Program-made: the position numbers and the translations under genes | Notes under the pieces: generated by a model | The model's database searches: none | What the model was told of the DNA's origin: nothing | The model's input: only the letters and a program-made list of their open reading frames with translations | From: a virus | Strand: one strand, 5' to 3' | IMG/VR virus record: IMGVR_UViG_3300023181_000044 | Location: 1-43,349 of that record | DNA length: 43,349 nucleotides | Shown here: positions 2,589-40,011 of the stretch, piece after piece | How the letters are laid out: each line of letters begins with the position of its first letter | How positions within the stretch are numbered: position 1 is the first letter of the stretch

Positions 2589-3667
2589 CAATCTACAATT
2601 TTAACGTTAAGTTTTTCTTCGGCTTCTTTTCGGGTTAGGGTTGGGATAGGTGTTGCCCATATGCCGTCAAACATTATGCAGTACCCATAATTCATTAACC
2701 TGATTGGGTTTTCAAGCAGGTATGTATCGCTATTCATTGTAAACGTTTTCTGGACGTGAGGATCTTTTAAGTCGTTCCTGAGTGGCTCTTTGACCATTAC
2801 ACCACCAATAAGCCCTCTTTTAATCGCCTCGTTTTTTAAGGCTTCGGTAATCTCTGATGTTGTGGCGGGTCTTAAATCATCTCTGCCTGGCCAACTCCAA
2901 ATGTCAATCCATTCTTTACCTTTGAAAAAGCCTCTAACCTGGTTATTGCCTAAATATTCAAATAAACTTCCGTTTTTAACAGTAGACTTATACCACTTCC
3001 CATCAACCAACTCAACAGGCTTTTCTTCAACAGGATTGCCAACGTGCTGAAAAGTTCCTTCAATAGGTGTAATTTTTAATTCCCGCCCAATACAATCCCT
3101 TTGCGAAATCAATTCTTTTTGCTCCATTAGCAAATTGTAAATCTTATCGATTTTCTCAATAGTTTCTGCGCCGTCTTTTCCGAAAAGAAATTCGGCACGT
3201 GATTCGCATTCTGTTTTAGTAATTTCCTCTTTAGGCATTATCTCTGATAGTTTGATGATTGGGAGGTTTTTCCATGTTGCTTTCGTTGCGCCACCCCATT
3301 CTTCTTTTTTAAAATATTTGTAATAGAAATTTGCGGACGCTGTAGGTATGGATTTATCCTCAGGAAACGCCTCTTTCAAAACATCCCTAAGCAAATCCAG
3401 ATTATCACAATCCTTTTCTATTTGATGCGTTCCGTGACGAACGGCCTCAACTGCTGCTTTAAACGGCATTTTAGCATAATCTTTCATTAAGTCGATAACC
3501 TTTGAAAACGCAAGTCCATTTGCTTTGAACTTAAGATAGCCTGATATTATTCCTTCCTTAGTTACTTTCTCGAAGGTCATTTCTTTAGGACTTAATGAAA
3601 CTATATCGTCTTTGTATAGTTTAATGATGCTTCCGTCCGATTGTGTTAGTCTAAAATAGTTTTTCAT
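2588..3667 (-). CDS. Hypothetical protein of moron-like cassette
   Basis: 359 residues beginning MKNYFRLTQSDGSIIKLYKD. The middle contains GKWYKSTVKNGSLFEYLGNN and a tryptophan-rich EWIDIWSWPGRDDLRPAT stretch, which together look like a small beta domain. The C-terminus has a predicted helical KEAEEKLNVK tail. There is no signal peptide, membrane segment or catalytic motif I can name. It lies between two tail genes yet is bracketed by terminators, so it is more likely an accessory gene than a structural one. Function unknown. Confidence 0.7.
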   Translation of the reverse strand: MKNYFRLTQSDGSIIKLYKDDIVSLSPKEMTFEKVTKEGIISGYLKFKANGLAFSKVIDLMKDYAKMPFKAAVEAVRHGTHQIEKDCDNLDLLRDVLKEAFPEDKSIPTASANFYYKYFKKEEWGGATKATWKNLPIIKLSEIMPKEEITKTECESRAEFLFGKDGAETIEKIDKIYNLLMEQKELISQRDCIGRELKITPIEGTFQHVGNPVEEKPVELVDGKWYKSTVKNGSLFEYLGNNQVRGFFKGKEWIDIWSWPGRDDLRPATTSEITEALKNEAIKRGLIGGVMVKEPLRNDLKDPHVQKTFTMNSDTYLLENPIRLMNYGYCIMFDGIWATPIPTLTRKEAEEKLNVKIVD

Positions 3668-3671
3668 AATG

Positions 3672-3896
3672 TTATTTTTTAGTGGTTAATTTTTTAGTTT
3701 CATATCCCAGTGCTTTTGATCCTTGAACTTTTATATTTTGCCCTCTAGCAGACGTTACAAAAGTAGGTTCGTGTAATTCTAAATTAAACCCTTTAGACTT
3801 AGACATAAATCGACACAAAGCCTTTCCTATTTGTTCTTCAGAATTTGCTTTCTCATCGTCTATCCAAAACTCGCCTTCATAGTAAGTAATATCCAT
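3672..3896 (-). CDS. Hypothetical protein, first gene of moron-like cassette
   Basis: 74 residues beginning MDITYYEGEFWIDDEKANSE, with a charged C-terminus. It ends 4 nt before the next gene and starts just downstream of a terminator-like hairpin (3920-3950), so it seems to head a separate three-gene unit. No recognised family. Confidence 0.6.
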   Translation of the reverse strand: MDITYYEGEFWIDDEKANSEEQIGKALCRFMSKSKGFNLELHEPTFVTSARGQNIKVQGSKALGYETKKLTTKK

Positions 3897-3919
3897 AATC
3901 CTAATTATTTATAAAACGC

Positions 3920-3950
3920 GAAAACCCGACAAATTAGAGGTTCGTCGGGT
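3920..3950 (-). terminator. Terminator after the tail gene 4048-6786
   Basis: A 7-bp stem ACCCGAC/GTCGGGT (3924-3930 and 3944-3950) with a 13-nt loop is followed on the minus strand by TTTT and then GC-containing sequence, so the U-tract is weak. It separates the large tail gene from the 2424-3896 cassette. Confidence 0.5.
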
Positions 3951-4047
3951 CACGGTTTCAGAAGTTAAACTATTAATTCAACTCTGTATATCGTACAATT
4001 GGAATCCCTCTAATATTCCGCTTGTTATGTTTCAGTAGACAATATTA

Positions 4048-19548: not shown

Positions 19549-21900
19549 TTAAAACGGAATATCGTTATCTTCTTCTTTTGTCGGACCGTAGCTAATCCAA
19601 CGTGTTGAATGAGTTCTTCCGGACTGTGTATCTAATTTATAGTATTGACCAAAATTTTCAAGCCATTGAGTAAATTTTCTTTGACTAAGAAATTTCTTAT
19701 AGTCTTGGTATTCATTTGTAAATTTTATAAAGTACTCGGTTTTATCAAGTCTTATATTCATCGGTATATTTTCCGTGTCTGCGGACCATTCATAAAATTC
19801 GTAAGAAGTTTCCTTAATAAATTTCCTGACTTCCAAATTATTAAAATCGTGTTTTACCAATCCATTTTCTAAATAATACTGAACACAATTAATCATATAA
19901 TTATCAAAACGTAACCATTCATCTTCGGTCCAATCAGAAAAAAGCATGTGACCAAATTCGTCTAAAGGCGTATGTTTGAAATTAAAATATGCAGACATTT
20001 CAACCTCAAATTTTCTGCGCTCATGAGAACCGCCTAACCCTCCTAAAGTGTAATTTGTAGTGATTAATATTTTTGGAGACTTTTCCACGGGAATTGAAAT
20101 TGCATCTTGTCCTTTGTATTCTAAGGTAATACCCTCGGTTATTAGGGAAAATAAAGATTCGAATGAAAAGTTCTTTTTAACATCATCAAAAACCAAAATC
20201 TGTGTATCTGTGCTAACAGTTTGATACGGGAAAGACTTTGTAAATTCGAATGTTTTTCCATCAATAGAAGCTACCTTTTTCATGTTTTTTAAAGCATTCC
20301 AAAACAAACCCTTGCCAGATCCTCCGTTTGGATTTTCAGAAACAGTTTCGTCATTAAAAATAATTGCTTTATTGTTTGCAGAGGTTTTAAAAGAATGTAG
20401 CAAATACCCTATTACTGATTTAAATGAATTATATTTTTCTACCGACTTACCAGATATAAGCCAAATAAATTTTCTAAATTCTGCTAAGTGATGGTCAGAC
20501 TTTTTAAAATCACGGTTTATTATTTGACGTTTCCAAATATAACCGTCAACATCAATATAATCTATTTCTTCAACTTTGTCTTTTGTTATTTTAACAACGC
20601 AATTTTTGAAGTATAAATAACACTCGTTTATCGTATCTTCTTTTATTTTTACGTCAGTAGTCGATAGCATTGAAAGAAAGTCATTTTTAAAATATCCGGT
20701 ATTTGAAGCCATAAAATCGTATGGTCCATAACCAATATTTTCACGGTCCAAAATATCGTTTAAAACAAAATCTTTTATCCTTTTGTCATTGGTTTCTTCC
20801 AGAAGATTTTGCTCCTTTTTTATAAAAGTAAATGTGCTTGAATTTTCTGAAGGGTAGTATTTAAAGAAATTTTTTTGCTCCAACCAGAACTTAAATTTGT
20901 GAGTGCTTAGAACAATAGATCCTTTGTCGTTATAAAACCAAAATTCATCAACGTCCAGACTTTCTTTTAATTTTGAAATATCAACATCTTTGTGATGCTT
21001 TTCAATATCTTTTTTTGATTTTCCGGACCTGATCATTTTTTCTATTTTTTCTTTTGTAACGTGGTCCTCAAAATGCTTCGTGCCTGGTTGCGTAGATTTA
21101 GAATATGAACTTTTTATAATCGATTCAATTTCTTTTTCCTTGCCGCCGGAGTTGAACTTTAAGCACTCGTGAAGAGCATCGCTTTTAGATATACCAAAAT
21201 CATAAAATGCGCTTGCTAAAATATAAAGATTTGTGTTTTTTTTACCGATAGTCATTCCGTATTTCTTTTCCCACCAAACCAATAATTTTTCGATTATTTG
21301 ATTATCCGAGGTCATTCTAACAATAGGCTCATAAGTTCCTATATCCTCAATGTTAGGCTCTTCCATTTGTATCCAAACTGAGCTTTCGTGGTTTATGTAA
21401 ATATCCGGATCATAAGATTCAAAACAAAAACGAGAAACATCGCTTCCGGATTGGTCCCAATTTGGACTGTTATAATATTTTTCTAAAGACTCAAAATACG
21501 CTTTGTGATTCTTTGGATCATTAGGTATTTTAACTAAAACCTTTACGCCTTTTTCGCTTGGCGATATCCAAGTTGAAAAAACAAACTCATCTGACAATAT
21601 TGAATTTTTAAATGAATATGCTTCTTCAGAACTTTCAAATTTATCAAAGTCTAAAATTATTAAACCGGAATGCTCTATTAAACCAGAAGCGGAACGGGAC
21701 CGAAACTTTCCATTAAAACAAGTTCCCGGAAGTCTTGATTTATTTTTAGCATAATCAGCATCAGACATTTTTCGAAGCTGATCGACAATATCTTTTGATT
21801 TACCGGACCTAATGCGCTCCAAGCAATACAACACATTTTTTTGAAACGGATTGTTTGGTTCTGTTACTTTTTTGAATATACTTACGATTGGGTTTATCAT
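19549..21900 (-). CDS. Primase-helicase, BT4734-type N-terminus and SF3/D5-like helicase
   Basis: 783 residues from MINPIVSIFKKVTEPNNPFQ (21898-21900). A 20-codon in-frame extension exists but lies in the attenuator hairpin. Residues 1-180 match BT4734/VirE-N-like primase-polymerase domains, with the metal pair LDFDKF at 83-88. The helicase part has Walker A GGSGKG at 526-531, Walker B ILVFDDV at 568-574 and sensor ILITTN at 611-616. The C-terminus ends DNDIPF, like SSB tails. It probably primes and unwinds at the phage origin. Transcription is likely controlled by the leader at 21901-22003. Confidence 0.88.
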   Translation of the reverse strand: MINPIVSIFKKVTEPNNPFQKNVLYCLERIRSGKSKDIVDQLRKMSDADYAKNKSRLPGTCFNGKFRSRSASGLIEHSGLIILDFDKFESSEEAYSFKNSILSDEFVFSTWISPSEKGVKVLVKIPNDPKNHKAYFESLEKYYNSPNWDQSGSDVSRFCFESYDPDIYINHESSVWIQMEEPNIEDIGTYEPIVRMTSDNQIIEKLLVWWEKKYGMTIGKKNTNLYILASAFYDFGISKSDALHECLKFNSGGKEKEIESIIKSSYSKSTQPGTKHFEDHVTKEKIEKMIRSGKSKKDIEKHHKDVDISKLKESLDVDEFWFYNDKGSIVLSTHKFKFWLEQKNFFKYYPSENSSTFTFIKKEQNLLEETNDKRIKDFVLNDILDRENIGYGPYDFMASNTGYFKNDFLSMLSTTDVKIKEDTINECYLYFKNCVVKITKDKVEEIDYIDVDGYIWKRQIINRDFKKSDHHLAEFRKFIWLISGKSVEKYNSFKSVIGYLLHSFKTSANNKAIIFNDETVSENPNGGSGKGLFWNALKNMKKVASIDGKTFEFTKSFPYQTVSTDTQILVFDDVKKNFSFESLFSLITEGITLEYKGQDAISIPVEKSPKILITTNYTLGGLGGSHERRKFEVEMSAYFNFKHTPLDEFGHMLFSDWTEDEWLRFDNYMINCVQYYLENGLVKHDFNNLEVRKFIKETSYEFYEWSADTENIPMNIRLDKTEYFIKFTNEYQDYKKFLSQRKFTQWLENFGQYYKLDTQSGRTHSTRWISYGPTKEEDNDIPF

Positions 21901-22003
21901 AAATTGAAGTGTGTGTAAAAATACAAAACCCGCATAATCCATGAGCCTCTGACCTCTCATTTCATATACGGGTAGTATAATATTTTATTATTTCAGTCAG
22001 AGG
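21901..22003 (-). promoter_or_regulatory. Attenuator leader RNA of primase gene
   Basis: Six nt after the -7 box the transcript carries CCTCTGAC (plus 21996-22003). Downstream, a terminator hairpin (ACCCG...CGGGT, inner AUGAG/CUCAU) has the loop AGGUCAGAGG, whose GUCAGAGG (plus 21946-21953) is the exact 8-nt complement of the 5' element, followed by a U-rich tract and then the ATG. The two pairings give a pseudoknot or an antiterminator. The helicase leader has the same layout. Confidence 0.65.
21916..21973 (-). terminator. Terminator hairpin in primase leader
   Basis: The stem 21928-21932/21969-21973 (ACCCG/CGGGT) continues through UAUA/UAUG and, after an internal loop, AUGAG/CUCAU. It is followed on the minus strand by TTTTGTATTTTT. 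It lies upstream of the chosen primase start, so it would be an attenuator. Confidence 0.6.
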
Positions 22004-22008
22004 TATTG

Positions 22009-22016
22009 CAAATATA
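22009..22016 (-). promoter_or_regulatory. -7 box TATATTTG, primase operon
   Basis: TATATTTG on the minus strand, with a GTTG element about 18 nt upstream as a possible -33 box. It is 6 nt before the leader element CTCTGAC, the same spacing as in the helicase promoter. Confidence 0.6.
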
Positions 22017-22240
22017 GTCAAATCTTTTAAAATACAACGTGTTTTATATAAAAAAAGATATGACGCAGATAAAATACCAATGTTTATAGTACTTTACGAT
22101 TAAAATTACTCTAAAAGTGACGTATCTTTATCTTTTTTCATTTTTTATTTTCAAAAAAATCAATTTTACCAAAAACACGTTTTTTATATAGTAAGGGTTG
22201 AGTACTTTTTTACACACTAAAACACGCAAAATATTCTTAC
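22017..22240. other. AT-rich intergenic region with short repeats, possible origin
   Basis: No gene fits here. There are three copies of AAAACACG (22172-22179, 22219-22226, and inverted at 22038-22045) and a 13-nt direct repeat, CGT(G/T)TTTTATATA, at 22038-22050 and 22178-22190. The region lies between the helicase and primase genes and is very AT-rich, which suits a replication origin or operator cluster. No direct proof. Confidence 0.35.
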
Positions 22241-22274
22241 AAAAAAAGCCTAATAAATTAATTATTAGGCTTTT
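22241..22274 (-). terminator. Terminator after helicase gene
   Basis: A perfect 13-bp stem AAAAGCCTAATAA/TTATTAGGCTTTT with a 5-nt loop, followed on the minus strand by a seven-T run. It ends the single-gene helicase unit. Confidence 0.85.
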
Positions 22275-22293
22275 AAATAAATTTACAACTGTG

Positions 22294-23931
22294 TCACTTA
22301 TAGCACTTGGCTAATTTTTCTTTTGTTTTTTCTATAAGATAATTGTAAGTCCTGTGGGTTCCAAATTCAAATTGTGCGCTATGCCGATAATGTTTTTTGA
22401 AATATTCATGTATTTTGTGGTCTAAAGTTTTCATTCTGATCCTCATTTCGTATTTTTCTTTTGGGACCGAATTTAATTTCCAAAGATCAATATATTTATC
22501 TATGAGTATTTTGTAGTAATCATTTTTATTATTTGTGGTCCTTTTTACATATTCTGCTATTTTTCTACCGTCTGGAATAGGTATTTTAGAAACTAGCATT
22601 GTTTTCTTTTGCACCTGTTCTAATTCCTTTTCAATCGGACCTCCTGCGCTTTCTTCTTTTATAACGACATTTACATGACCACAGTCGGGACATTCATCTT
22701 TTGCACTTCCAATCCAATTATAACCGCATTTATCGCATTGTATTAATAATTCCTTTTTCTTTTTAGCAGGATGCAGACCAATGTTAAATATTTTAAGCCA
22801 ATCTATATCATCGGACCACTTACCTAAACGAGCTACATTGCCCCCAAGGTCAATCAAAATAAAATGATCCTTAAACATTCCTTCACGAACAGTCCTTGCG
22901 CCACGACCTACAATTTGATGCCATAAAGAAAGTGATTTTGTAGGCCTGTTGACTATTATACACTCTACTTCCCGAACATCGAACCCGGTCGTAAAAGTTC
23001 CCGTAGAAACTAATATTGCCCCTGCTGTATTTCTAAACCATTGTACGATTTCCTTTCTTTCAGAGGTATCGTTATTTACTGAATCATAAGAGCGAATAGG
23101 ATATTCTGAAAATGTATCAACCAATGAAATGTTTTGCTTTGTTGAAGCTGTGAAAATCATTGTTTTTTTACCAATTGCCTTTTCTTTATACTCTTCTAAA
23201 ACATTTAAATCATGCTTTACTGACTCTTCAGCAATCTCATTCTCGTCAAAATCATCGTTACCGGATGCTTCAAGTTTAGAATAATAATCGTAGCAATAAA
23301 CTACTTCATCAACCAAAGAACCCTCTTCAATCAATTGCTTTATCGGCGGTCCGATGTTTATAGAATCATAAGTTTCAGACATAAGGACCGGAGCTGACCA
23401 CTTTTCAACATGTTCGTTATAGCAGCATATTTCTCTGGCATCGTATCGTTTTTGGCAATATGAACATTCGTAGTAACTTATTCTCTTGTTTATTATAGGC
23501 GTTGCCGTAAACCCTACGCGCTTTGCTTTTCTAAATAATGCAAAGGATTTTACATGAACCTGTTCATGAGCTTCATCGATTATCAATAAATCAATATCGA
23601 TCTCTATTTTTCGGGACCAAATAGTCTGTGTCATTCCTACGAAAACATTTCCGGACCAATCTGGTTTTGATTTTTGCGTTATTTTTTCGCTTAATATTCC
23701 AAACTCTGCTAAAGTATCAGAAGTTTGGTTAACAAGTTCGTCACGATGGACCGAAACCAAAACTTTGCCCCCAGGGTTTCGGACTAGGTATTGCGTTATA
23801 AATTCTGACATTATAACCGTTTTACCAGATCCGGTTGCAGATTGATTTAAAACAGAATCGTAAAGTTCTATTTTTTCAAATGTTTCATTTACCATTTTAT
23901 TCTGGTAATGATATAATTCGTATTTCTTCAT
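22294..23931 (-). CDS. SF2 DEAD/DEAH-box helicase with zinc sites
   Basis: 545 residues. Motif I SATGSGKT at 31-38, motif II DEAH at 119-122, motif III TATP at 142-145, and motif VI QIVGRGAR at 339-346 define a RecG/UvsW/type III restriction-like SF2 helicase. Two cysteine clusters are visible: CSYCQKRY...CC near 156-170, inserted after motif III, and CDKCGYNW...CPDCG near 400-425. It probably acts in replication fork remodelling or recombination. It is transcribed alone, between its own attenuator leader and terminator. Confidence 0.9.
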   Translation of the reverse strand: MKKYELYHYQNKMVNETFEKIELYDSVLNQSATGSGKTVIMSEFITQYLVRNPGGKVLVSVHRDELVNQTSDTLAEFGILSEKITQKSKPDWSGNVFVGMTQTIWSRKIEIDIDLLIIDEAHEQVHVKSFALFRKAKRVGFTATPIINKRISYYECSYCQKRYDAREICCYNEHVEKWSAPVLMSETYDSINIGPPIKQLIEEGSLVDEVVYCYDYYSKLEASGNDDFDENEIAEESVKHDLNVLEEYKEKAIGKKTMIFTASTKQNISLVDTFSEYPIRSYDSVNNDTSERKEIVQWFRNTAGAILVSTGTFTTGFDVREVECIIVNRPTKSLSLWHQIVGRGARTVREGMFKDHFILIDLGGNVARLGKWSDDIDWLKIFNIGLHPAKKKKELLIQCDKCGYNWIGSAKDECPDCGHVNVVIKEESAGGPIEKELEQVQKKTMLVSKIPIPDGRKIAEYVKRTTNNKNDYYKILIDKYIDLWKLNSVPKEKYEMRIRMKTLDHKIHEYFKKHYRHSAQFEFGTHRTYNYLIEKTKEKLAKCYK

Positions 23932-24006
23932 AAATAAAAAAACTAATAAATTAAAAGTTCTGACGCTTATAATTTATTAGCCTATTGCTATTATTCACCG
24001 TCAGAG
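23932..24006 (-). promoter_or_regulatory. Attenuator leader RNA of helicase gene
   Basis: Six nt after the -7 box comes CTCTGACG (CGTCAGAG on plus, 23999-24006). Downstream a perfect 11-bp hairpin CTAATAAATTA/TAATTTATTAG (23970-23980 and 23943-23953) has the 7-nt complement CGTCAGA (plus 23959-23965) in its 16-nt loop, then TTTTTTTA, then the ATG. The design is the same as in the primase leader although the hairpin stems differ completely in sequence. Confidence 0.65.
23934..23980 (-). terminator. Terminator hairpin in helicase leader
   Basis: An 11-bp AT stem (23943-23953/23970-23980) followed by a seven-T run, ending only 5 nt before the helicase ATG. It would stop transcription before the gene unless opened or out-competed. 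Confidence 0.6.
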
Positions 24007-24012
24007 GAAATA

Positions 24013-24020
24013 TAAAGATA
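24013..24020 (-). promoter_or_regulatory. -7-like box TATCTTTA, helicase gene
   Basis: TATCTTTA fits TAnnTTTG except for the last base. It follows the T-run of the terminator at 24022-24059 and lies 6 nt before CTCTGAC, aligned with the primase promoter. Confidence 0.5.
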
Positions 24021-36728: not shown

Positions 36729-37367
36729 TTATTTTAAATTCACAGATTGAGGTATGTTTCTTTCTTTAGAACGCTCTTTCATTTGCCAATTGTAATCTAA
36801 TTCGTAATTATGTGAGTTTCCAATCAAGTCGTATTTGTCTTTACTAAAAGATATTTTTATAAAAGTCCTCATTCCTTCATCTTGATTTTCATTAACTTTA
36901 TGTATATTGAATTGATTAAGCCTTAAAAGCGTTTTGTTTGGGAAAGTCTTTTCATTGAAAGGCATTGCTTGTTCTTCCATTTCAGATAAACTTACTTTAT
37001 CGTCTAAGGTTAATTTAAAGTCTGAAAAATTAAATATGGTTGGCGATTTGTCAGACCAGATATAATTTATATCATCGGTTAAAAATCCATCTGAATGATA
37101 ACCTTGACGATTGAATGTTTTTTCTTTGTTTTGGTACTGATGCTTTACAGTTAAATAGCAATACGATTCTATGTATTTGTCTAATCCATATTCAGCAACA
37201 AAATGACAACAAACGCAGCCGATTATATCTTTAAGAAAACTTAATCTTTGTTCTACTTCAGGTTTTGATTCGCCTATCATTTTGATTGGCAAATATTGGT
37301 AAAACATCATTTCTAAGCATTCGACGTTTATTTCATCAAGTACTTTTGGCAGTTCTCCATATTTCAT
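36729..37367 (-). CDS. Putative 2OG-Fe(II) oxygenase
   Basis: 212 residues from MKYGELPKVLDEINVECLEM (ATG 37365-37367); an upstream frame would run through a terminator. The jelly-roll ligands can be read: GYHSDGF gives His91 and Asp93, FNIHKVNE gives His156, and MRTFIKIS gives Arg167, in the order HxD...H-x10-R of 2-oxoglutarate-dependent dioxygenases. A CVCCHF cysteine cluster at 51-56 is unexplained. Phage members modify nucleotides or proteins; target unknown. It forms a single-gene unit between terminators. Confidence 0.5.
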   Translation of the reverse strand: MKYGELPKVLDEINVECLEMMFYQYLPIKMIGESKPEVEQRLSFLKDIIGCVCCHFVAEYGLDKYIESYCYLTVKHQYQNKEKTFNRQGYHSDGFLTDDINYIWSDKSPTIFNFSDFKLTLDDKVSLSEMEEQAMPFNEKTFPNKTLLRLNQFNIHKVNENQDEGMRTFIKISFSKDKYDLIGNSHNYELDYNWQMKERSKERNIPQSVNLK

Positions 37368-37376
37368 AATATTATT

Positions 37377-37416
37377 AAATAGAAAATGCCCAAACTCGCT
37401 ACAAGAATGGGCATTT
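37377..37416 (-). terminator. Terminator after metallopeptidase gene
   Basis: A 9-bp stem AAATGCCCA/TGGGCATTT (37384-37392 and 37408-37416) followed by TTCTATTT on the minus strand. It rules out the longer start of the oxygenase gene. Confidence 0.75.
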
Positions 37417-37485
37417 ATCCAATTAAGTTGTTTCCTTAATTTTAACTGAAGTGGTAGCGACAAATCAGTTCAGCAAACATACAAA

Positions 37486-39264
37486 TTATTTCGGAATCTC
37501 AACCAATAAACTATTACTTTTTTCAGTTCGCCAACCATCTGAATTTTTGCCTTTCACAACGTATATCACGGTGCCTTTGAGTTTGTCGGCGGCATTGAAT
37601 GTTACGGTTATGAATGTGTTTGTAGTACTTGCCTGATAGTTTTCTTTTGTATTTCCTTTGAGTGAATTATCATCAATCTCAGGATTTTTGTACAAACTAT
37701 ATCCAACTGTTGAAAAATTAACCGGAATACTCCATTGCAGTTTAACCGATGTTTTTGTAAGCGATCCAGGTACGTATGATAAAATAGGCGCATTGCTTAC
37801 TTTTGGAACGGGCGGCACAAATGTAACTTTTACTTTTTGCTGCGCCCTACCGCCTTTTCCGTCCGTTACCGTAAGCATAAAATTACAGACCCGTGAAATT
37901 GTTGGGTAAACGTTCCATTTGTCACGCAAATAAAAGTTTCGGTAATTCAGTTTTGAAGGCAACACACTTGCGAACATTGAACCGGAAAAGTTTGTGGATT
38001 TCGGGATTGTATTGGCTATTACCGTTGGATCGATCTGGTCCCATTGGTAATATAATTCGTCACCGTCCGGATCGGTAGCGATTGCCGACAATGAAAATGG
38101 CGTGTCGAATTCAACAACTCTATCAATAGAGCTTGTAATAATTGGATTTCGATTGCCTGTGTTTATGCTGCCTAACGTAGTTTTTGACGCCAAAGTCTGT
38201 GCGATTTGGTCAATCGATCGACCGTGAAAAAACGGATAGGAATGCGCCTGTAAATTGTAATTTGCCCCAGCAATTCCTGCGTAACTCATAGCCGTGCATC
38301 CGCTGCCGGATTCCATATTTGCCACGCCAACACCTTTGTAACTGAATGTATGCGTTGCGCCCAATTGATGCCCGATTTCGTGAACAACAACATCGGTAAA
38401 GAAATACGGGTCGTTCATATTTGGAGTTGCTGAATAAGCGGAACCTTTCAAAGTTGGATTTGTAACCGTTCCAATGCCGCCAGCATTGCCGCCAACACCA
38501 ATAGTCAAAACGTGTCCGAGGTCGTAGTTTCCCGAACCGATTACTTTGTCAATAAATACCTGGCTTTGCCCTGTCCATTTATCCTGTGTTGTAAACGGGT
38601 CGTCAGCGTTCATACAAAGCAGTTTTTCATTCCCGACTACCAATTGACCCATTACACCGTTATTGGCTCTTAATTGCTTGTTTACGGCGGTCATTAATGT
38701 GTTCAAATACGCAAGTCCTTTCGCTTGTGTTAAGCCGATTTGCTTCATGCCTTCAAAATTTATAGCGATTGCCATTCGGACAACGGTTAAATCACCTCGA
38801 ACTACCGCAGCCTTTTGACTTACTTTTGCCCGATCTGTAAAATCAGATATAACCCGCCTTTCGTCAACATCACACGAAAACTCTCTTTTACTTTCAACCC
38901 GCCCTATTTTATAACCATTGCCGGCCGGACGTACAAACGTTTGCAATGAATCCTTAATTGTTGCCTCAATCCCTTCCTTTGAAACCGCAATGCTAATGGA
39001 ACGTCCGTCTTTATCAAAACCGTGGAAACTCCGAAGTCCGTATTTCTTTGCAATCTTATCATCAGCAAAGTTGAAATCTTCAATAAGTGCGTACTGCGAT
39101 AAATTCCCGGCGGCATCAGGAACGGTTGCTTTTTTAGCGTTCAGTTGTTTTGTTAACTTTGGTACATTAAGTCCGTAAAGCGTTTCTCCTGTTTTGGATT
39201 GTTGTTGTGTCCATTGCCCGAATGTTAGGATTGGGAAAAGTAGGAATATTAGTAGTTTTTTCAT
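37486..39264 (-). CDS. Secreted reprolysin-like metallopeptidase
   Basis: 592 residues. Signal peptide 1-17 (MKKLLIFLLFPILTFGQ). Propeptide-like region about 20-155. Peptidase M12B-like domain about 155-360 with zinc motif HEIGHQLGATH at 295-305 (Glu296 catalytic) and Met-turn CTAMSYAG at 323-330. Then a cadherin/Ig-like region (ATDPDGDELYYQWDQ) and an FN3-like C-terminal domain. The T9SS sorting domain usual for host homologues is missing. It would act outside the host cell or on the envelope. It overlaps the MazG-like gene by 4 nt. Confidence 0.85.
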   Translation of the reverse strand: MKKLLIFLLFPILTFGQWTQQQSKTGETLYGLNVPKLTKQLNAKKATVPDAAGNLSQYALIEDFNFADDKIAKKYGLRSFHGFDKDGRSISIAVSKEGIEATIKDSLQTFVRPAGNGYKIGRVESKREFSCDVDERRVISDFTDRAKVSQKAAVVRGDLTVVRMAIAINFEGMKQIGLTQAKGLAYLNTLMTAVNKQLRANNGVMGQLVVGNEKLLCMNADDPFTTQDKWTGQSQVFIDKVIGSGNYDLGHVLTIGVGGNAGGIGTVTNPTLKGSAYSATPNMNDPYFFTDVVVHEIGHQLGATHTFSYKGVGVANMESGSGCTAMSYAGIAGANYNLQAHSYPFFHGRSIDQIAQTLASKTTLGSINTGNRNPIITSSIDRVVEFDTPFSLSAIATDPDGDELYYQWDQIDPTVIANTIPKSTNFSGSMFASVLPSKLNYRNFYLRDKWNVYPTISRVCNFMLTVTDGKGGRAQQKVKVTFVPPVPKVSNAPILSYVPGSLTKTSVKLQWSIPVNFSTVGYSLYKNPEIDDNSLKGNTKENYQASTTNTFITVTFNAADKLKGTVIYVVKGKNSDGWRTEKSNSLLVEIPK

Positions 39265-39945: not shown

Positions 39946-40011
39946 GTGTGTATGTGTATATATTTTGCCTACTCGTTAGCTTTTCGGCTTCCGCTAATTC
40001 AAACCTACAAA

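Follow-up and report, generated by a model that had tools for sequence, protein, structure and literature searches.

The window analysed here, that is, the whole 43,349-base stretch of an IMG/VR virus record with phage portal and terminase genes (Pfam), carries three genes on its minus strand that are preceded by leaders of a common plan (Table 1). One is a primase-like replication gene with a BT4734-like N-terminal domain, whose phage homologs are annotated as DNA primase/helicase or VirE; the second is a DEAD/ResIII helicase gene; and the third encodes a 212-aa protein for which a Pfam search returned no matches. The primase most likely starts at the ATG at 21900, given that the longest ORF aligns with other primases only from residue 26 onwards; the start of that longer ORF, at 21960, falls within the leader hairpin. 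On the same strand, an AU-rich hairpin with a T7 tract (AAGCCTAATAATTAATTTATTAGGCTTTTTTT) lies 3' of the helicase gene (22236-22318) and looks like an ordinary terminator between helicase and primase. The gene at 37486-39264 (minus strand) encodes a protein of 592 aa that includes a reprolysin-like (M12B) metallopeptidase domain (Pfam PF13583, E=2.7e-16), and a DUF805b RNA (RF02914, 39.2 bits, E=9.5e-8) at 39966-39997 (minus strand) has a near-adjacent TAGGTTTG box upstream and a 100-aa ORF downstream.

Table 1. Leader elements of the window and the genes that they precede.
Feature	Position	Strand	Remarks
Primase-like replication gene, BT4734-like N-terminal domain	19549..21900	-	Pfam PF08800, E=2.9e-21; ATG 21900
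Primase leader, -7 box TATATTTG	22009..22016	-	RNA start expected ~5 nt downstream
Primase leader, 5' element (a) CCTCTGAC	21996..22003	-	
Primase leader, terminator-like hairpin	21929..21972	-	covariance-model match 21914-22016, E=2.6e-4
Primase leader, loop segment (a') GTCAGAGG	21946..21953	-	8-nt perfect complement of 5' element; preceded by AG in loop
Primase leader, U-rich tract	21917..21928	-	
DEAD/ResIII helicase gene	22294..23931	-	Pfam PF04851, E=9.1e-20
Helicase leader, -7-like box TATCTTTA	24013..24020	-	imperfect, 5/6 match to TAnnTTTG; 6 nt between box and CTCTGAC
Helicase leader, alternative box TATATTTC	24014-24007	-	also 5/6 to TAnnTTTG
Helicase leader, 5' element (a) CTCTGACG	23999..24006	-	CTCTGAC 24006-24000
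Helicase leader, hairpin, loop CGTCAGAA	23943..23980	-	14/15 pairs; covariance-model match 23929-24014, E=0.019
Helicase leader, loop segment (a') CGTCAGA	23959..23965	-	7-nt complement of element
Helicase leader, T7 tract	23936..23942	-	ATG at 23931
Gene of 212-aa protein downstream of third leader	36729..37367	-	no Pfam match
Third leader, whole	37481-37370	-	complete form, with hairpin 1
Third leader, -7 box TATGTTTG	37474..37481	-	
Third leader, 5' element TCGCTAC	37454..37460	-	sits in hairpin 1 loop
Third leader, hairpin 1 stem AACTGA / TTCAGTT	37470-37465 / 37450-37444	-	
Third leader, terminator-like hairpin	37384..37416	-	weak covariance-model match 37374-37481, E=0.89
Third leader, loop GTAGCGA	37402-37396	-	complement of TCGCTAC

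The initial annotation of this DNA had described the primase and helicase leaders as two copies of one architecture, and both are indeed found on the minus strand where it had placed them. As a pair the duplication is real, but the two leaders belong to a wide family with a third copy in the window, and in that family the 5' element is usually looped out by a hairpin of its own. Leaders built to the same plan from differing sequences are spread over many contigs of Bacteroidota phages, with 54 non-redundant examples. In most relatives a short hairpin opens the RNA and holds the 5' element in its loop (hairpin 1, e.g. GUAG-A-GUGGACG-CUAC), so that the core of the structure is a kissing pair of this loop and that of the terminator-like hairpin (hairpin 2). 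The primase and helicase leaders of the window are a reduced form, with a bare element of 7-8 nt. The primase hairpin, with a lower stem CCCGUAUA/UAUGCGGG and an upper stem AUGAG/CUCAU, retains the purine internal loop of the hairpin 2 module (UGAA/GGAU), hairpin 1 being lost or weakened. The helicase leader is the most reduced of the three, and where its RNA begins is uncertain, because the alternative box TATATTTC would place the start inside the 5' element.

In flavobacteria the -7 box lies at -12 to -5 and RNA starts ~5 nt past it (PMC9723704), which makes hairpin 1, or the bare element, the predicted 5' end of the RNA. Behind hairpin 1 follows an A-rich linker (consensus ATAAGAA) and then hairpin 2, whose stem is in many cases interrupted by a 4x4 internal loop and weak above it, with an upper stem of 3-4 bp. 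The internal loop is purine-rich, typically UGAN/NGAU, which we read from the sequence as tandem G-A, or GAGUA/GAAA, which by sequence resembles the bulged-G, sarcin-ricin type; GA stands on both strands of hairpin 2 in 36 of 54 leaders, against 13 in shuffles. Within the apical loop, the complement of the 5' element sits flush with the 3' arm in 53 of the 54, with 0-3 nt, mostly one, on its 5' side; in the unfiltered descriptor table, which tolerated gaps of up to 3, 40 of 43 abut the arm directly. As in an attenuator, the hairpin is followed immediately by a U-tract and the two stand between promoter and gene. Counted from where the U-tract begins after hairpin 2, the T fraction is 0.69-1.0 at positions 0-5 and 0.67-0.87 at positions 7-10, and the distance from the U-tract to the ATG is variable, mostly 8-38 nt.

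Pairing between the 5' element and the hairpin loop, which the initial annotation raised as a possibility, is supported by several lines of evidence. Within the window itself CTCTGAC occurs five times against 1.5 expected, which taken alone is weak support. The main support is comparative. Homologs of the window primase and helicase in IMG/VR have upstream regions that keep the same plan with unrelated letters (e.g. CTCTTCAC/GTGAAGAG, AGTGGTAG/CTACCACT and GTGGTCG/CGACCAC). A descriptor comprising a promoter, an element of at least 7 nt, a hairpin with the exact complement in its loop and a U-tract matched 61 times in 855 kb, compared with 4-6 times in dinucleotide shuffles. When a perfect promoter box was required, 45 matches in 855 kb stood against 0, 0 and 0 in the shuffles, the 45 including overlapping loci and amounting to 43 distinct sequences. 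Five descriptor matches look accidental (window +18969, L087 -9301, L094 -12499, L095 -14854 and L165 -8663); those in L087, L095 and L165 were removed before the statistics on the 54 leaders were compiled, and those in the window and L094 were never in that set.

Given that the descriptor itself selects for pairing, tests independent of pairing were added. A loop-blind scan of all viral contigs, in which the promoter, the hairpin 1 stem and AAGAA were required and the seven loop letters left free, found an exact 7-nt complement 38-46 nt downstream in 24 of 27 contigs, some of these 24 leaders being near-identical; of the remainder, L149 has one mismatch and two others resemble coding sequence. 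A covariance model that ignores the loop-loop pairing and contains no sequence from the window ranked the primase leader first and the helicase leader second in the window (E=2.6e-4 and E=0.019), and of its matches at E<0.05, the seven absent from the descriptor list all have a loop complement of 6-8 nt. Among primase upstream regions chosen by homology alone, the arrangement is present in 18 of 37 (shuffle mean 1.0, maximum 4), and in more distant primases (41-45% identity) in 1 of 22, which is the chance level. The leader is thus not essential to the primase gene, since some orthologs (19/37) are without it.

Covariation points the same way. In an alignment of 22 leaders, the structure as a whole has 107 two-sided changed cells, compared with 37 +/- 5 in shuffles. 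The loop-loop helix (alignment columns 24-30/81-87) is 96.1% paired with two-sided changes at five of seven pairs, a percentage that is partly selected because some of the 22 leaders came via the descriptor, which does not apply to the loop-blind set; sliding the pairing partner by a single column abolishes the signal. In the same alignment hairpin 1 is 96.6% paired and the upper stem of hairpin 2 93.9%, and the lower stem of hairpin 2 is less regular (68-78%), partly because its length varies. The pairing of element and loop is therefore clearly kept in homologous leaders, contrary to the outcome that the initial annotation had named as refuting its reading, and it is kept by compensatory change, as in a kissing loop or pseudoknot. 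Read from aligned sequences, the comparison shows two hairpins, their loop-loop pairing, compensatory evolution, the order promoter-leader-gene and a U-tract attached to the hairpin, and we regard the kissing-loop structure as almost certain.

The leaders precede genes for primase, helicase, HNH/NUMOD-like and GIY-YIG-like endonucleases and DNA methyltransferases, as well as for a RecD-like helicase, a ligase-like protein and small proteins of no named family, these names coming from sequence inspection except where the genes were annotated. Most of the scanned phage genomes have one to five leaders each. BLAST with the leader of phage mumin returned 48 records, of which 44 are cultured Flavobacterium phages with one copy each, upstream of a gene annotated as endonuclease; mumin6-4 has another leader before gp036, which itself precedes the helicase and primase genes. 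The canonical pattern, which covers the GUAGA type only, gave 25 leader-like matches in viral contigs and none in 400 Flavobacteriaceae or 396 Bacteroidota host genomes, so the family, found in phages and absent in its canonical pattern from the searched host chromosomes, is phage-borne. A covariance-model search of 301 Flavobacteriaceae genomes gave no matches but carries no weight, since only 13 of the thousands of candidates per genome were scored. In BLAST, one canonical leader had no match among phages, and another had none among plasmids. Two kissing-loop leaders (L178 and L179) lie ~750 nt apart on a contig that was binned into a Lacinutrix MAG and may be phage or chromosomal (G024:C22).

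In L014 (IMGVR 3300023106_000006, ~2900-3550, corresponding to window 21900-22010), whose helicase and primase are 99-100% identical to those of the window, a GIY-YIG-like endonuclease gene, apparently with a hairpin leader of its own, separates the primase from its promoter; the original primase leader is mostly gone and GTCAGAGGCT persists. In L020, L024 and L031 short ORFs that are endonuclease-like by inspection stand directly before the primase, those of L020 and L024 with a leader ahead of them, which suggests that insertions have occurred at this spot more than once.

The initial annotation further held that the shared sequence would couple helicase and primase expression. A similar element is indeed common to the two leaders in the window (CCTCTGAC) and in its closest relatives, where L005/L015 and L006/L016 share CTCTCTGA between helicase and primase. 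In more distant phages, however, each gene has its own loop, as in L010 (CCACTAC and CTCTTCAC at the two genes on one contig) and L011 (GTGGTCG and CATCTAC), and other genes carry the same kind of leader. The shared loop is therefore a feature of one clade, perhaps inherited from a common copy, and the coupling is not general. Pairing in trans between the two leaders was considered because both contain CTCTGAC and because the primase leader of L017 (~3890-4000) keeps its hairpin with the loop GTCAGAGAG after loss of the matching 5' element, a natural deletion; as a general mechanism it was rejected, given that most genomes use a different loop for each leader.

What the structure does can be proposed from its anatomy. 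The reading that we favour, at about even odds, is transcription attenuation, in which hairpin 2 would be an intrinsic terminator whose closure is helped by the kissing contact. The transcript would begin at or just before hairpin 1, or at the bare 7-8 nt element in the reduced form, and would continue through the A-rich linker, the terminator-shaped hairpin 2 with its purine-rich internal loop and the U-tract to the start codon. Hairpin 1 would fold first, and its loop would pair over ~7 nt with the loop of hairpin 2; this contact could form once the latter loop has left RNA polymerase and before the lower stem closes. It would then promote the closing of hairpin 2, a sign of effect that we infer, and so attenuate transcription into the gene. 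Expression would be low or timed unless the contact was broken or blocked by a phage or host protein, an altered polymerase or the rate of elongation, and the leader would probably serve to set the dosage or the timing of early replication genes and of endonuclease genes. Bacteroides use intrinsic terminators (PMC7366714). Against attenuation, the internal loop and weak upper stem make hairpin 2 unlike the simplest terminators; neither the primase nor the helicase leader was called by a generic sigma-70/terminator scan, a method ill-fitted to promoters of Bacteroidota and to stems that internal loops interrupt.

A role in translation or mRNA stability would fit the same anatomy. Here the U-rich stretch would be part of the start region instead of a terminator, and the leader would protect the 5' end, serve as a ribosome stand-by site or bind a repressor protein. 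With the flavobacterial box at -12 to -5 (PMC9723704), the predicted RNA begins with hairpin 1, the start codon is often merely ~10-20 nt behind hairpin 2, and homing endonuclease genes of T4 use 5' hairpins for translational control, according to the passages on those genes in PMC2988022; the same passages describe for seg43(25) of Aeromonas phage 25 a very stable hairpin just upstream of the ribosome site that does not sequester it. However, it is the hairpin and not the ATG that fixes the position of the U-tract, and the ATG can be 20-38 nt further on; a terminator requires such anchoring, a start region does not. A fixed U-tract with a variable distance to the ATG favours a terminator over a start region, and we therefore consider a post-transcriptional leader rather unlikely.

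Processive antitermination, by analogy with the put RNA of phage HK022, is a distinctly less probable reading, in which the leader would bind RNA polymerase and make it ignore the leader's own and later terminators. The position at the very start of transcripts, the elaborate conserved fold with its purine modules and A-rich linker, and the phage-borne distribution would all suit it, but the terminator-like hairpin and U-tract are integral to the structure, and what follows is in many cases a single short gene, for example of an endonuclease. The initial annotation had left the choice between a pseudoknot and an antiterminator; the former is favoured and the latter, as an exclusive alternative, disfavoured. 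In such a mutually exclusive switch the 5' element would act as an antiterminator or anti-hairpin strand and replace hairpin 2, and the nested fold of element and loop is indeed the minimum-energy structure for a longer primase fragment and for the helicase leader. Yet the complement is confined to the hairpin loop, flush on the 3' side in 53/54, most relatives hold the element in the loop of hairpin 1, and the geometry suits simultaneous pairing, which makes the switch very improbable. That the arrangement is a DNA-level inverted repeat (operator half-sites) or chance is barely credible: the two window leaders do have CTCTGAC in common, but elements elsewhere vary freely yet stay complementary, the stems covary too, and promoter, hairpin and U-tract follow one another in a constant order on a single strand.

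With no match in Rfam, the leader is probably an undescribed on/off or dosage control of viral replication and endonuclease genes. More tentatively, and well short of an even chance, the leaders may form a new class of phage regulatory RNA, in which a kissing-loop module on an intrinsic terminator would read a state specific to the phage or to infection (polymerase modification, an RNA-binding protein of the phage or the speed of elongation) and so time replication and homing-endonuclease genes across Bacteroidota phages, the loops having diversified such that leaders in one genome mostly avoid cross-pairing. Gene regulation of Bacteroidota phages is little known, and here a conserved, strongly covarying RNA missing from Rfam recurs at their replication and homing-endonuclease genes. 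Exact copies of one leader exist in 44 cultured Flavobacterium phage records, so its function is directly testable.

We could not match the architecture of this cis-acting leader RNA to any described one. None of the 4227 families of Rfam 15 reaches its gathering score on the leaders of the window or of 16 leader-bearing loci, and at E<=10 no family reaches its cut-off on two canonical leaders; a literature search did not find the element described, and a description in literature beyond that search is possible. The DUF805b RNA (RF02914) is likewise small and structured and sits where a phage transcript begins, but its Rfam model does not match the kissing-loop leaders. The put RNA of phage HK022, by binding RNA polymerase, carries it past terminators both in the RNA itself and further on. 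Compared by description only, put shares with our leaders the placement of a cis-acting structured RNA at a phage transcript start; in contrast, the leaders include a terminator-like hairpin, and the loops of their two hairpins pair with each other. A Shine-Dalgarno site is rarely used by flavobacterial genes, and the start codon of the kissing-loop leaders lies beyond the hairpin and its U-tract, so that sequestration of the kind found in T4 is not expected here. Homing endonuclease genes of the T4 family (I-TevI, segB, mobE, seg43(25)) resemble ours in having a structured 5' leader, and mobE and segF also have internal terminators, as the passages on these genes in PMC2988022 relate. The T4 hairpins sequester the ribosome site, with no loop-loop contact described in those passages (PMC2988022), whereas kissing-loop leaders also stand before replication genes. 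The other near precedent is the general class of attenuators with intrinsic terminators and riboswitch-type leaders, which equally have a promoter, a structured 5' leader and a terminator-shaped hairpin with a U-tract before the gene. Unlike these, the leaders described here are without an apparent leader peptide, alternative antiterminator strand or known ligand, and the apical loop of the terminator-like hairpin instead kisses a 5' hairpin. If the attenuation reading is true, a terminator controlled by loop-loop contact would be added to the known modes of phage gene timing.
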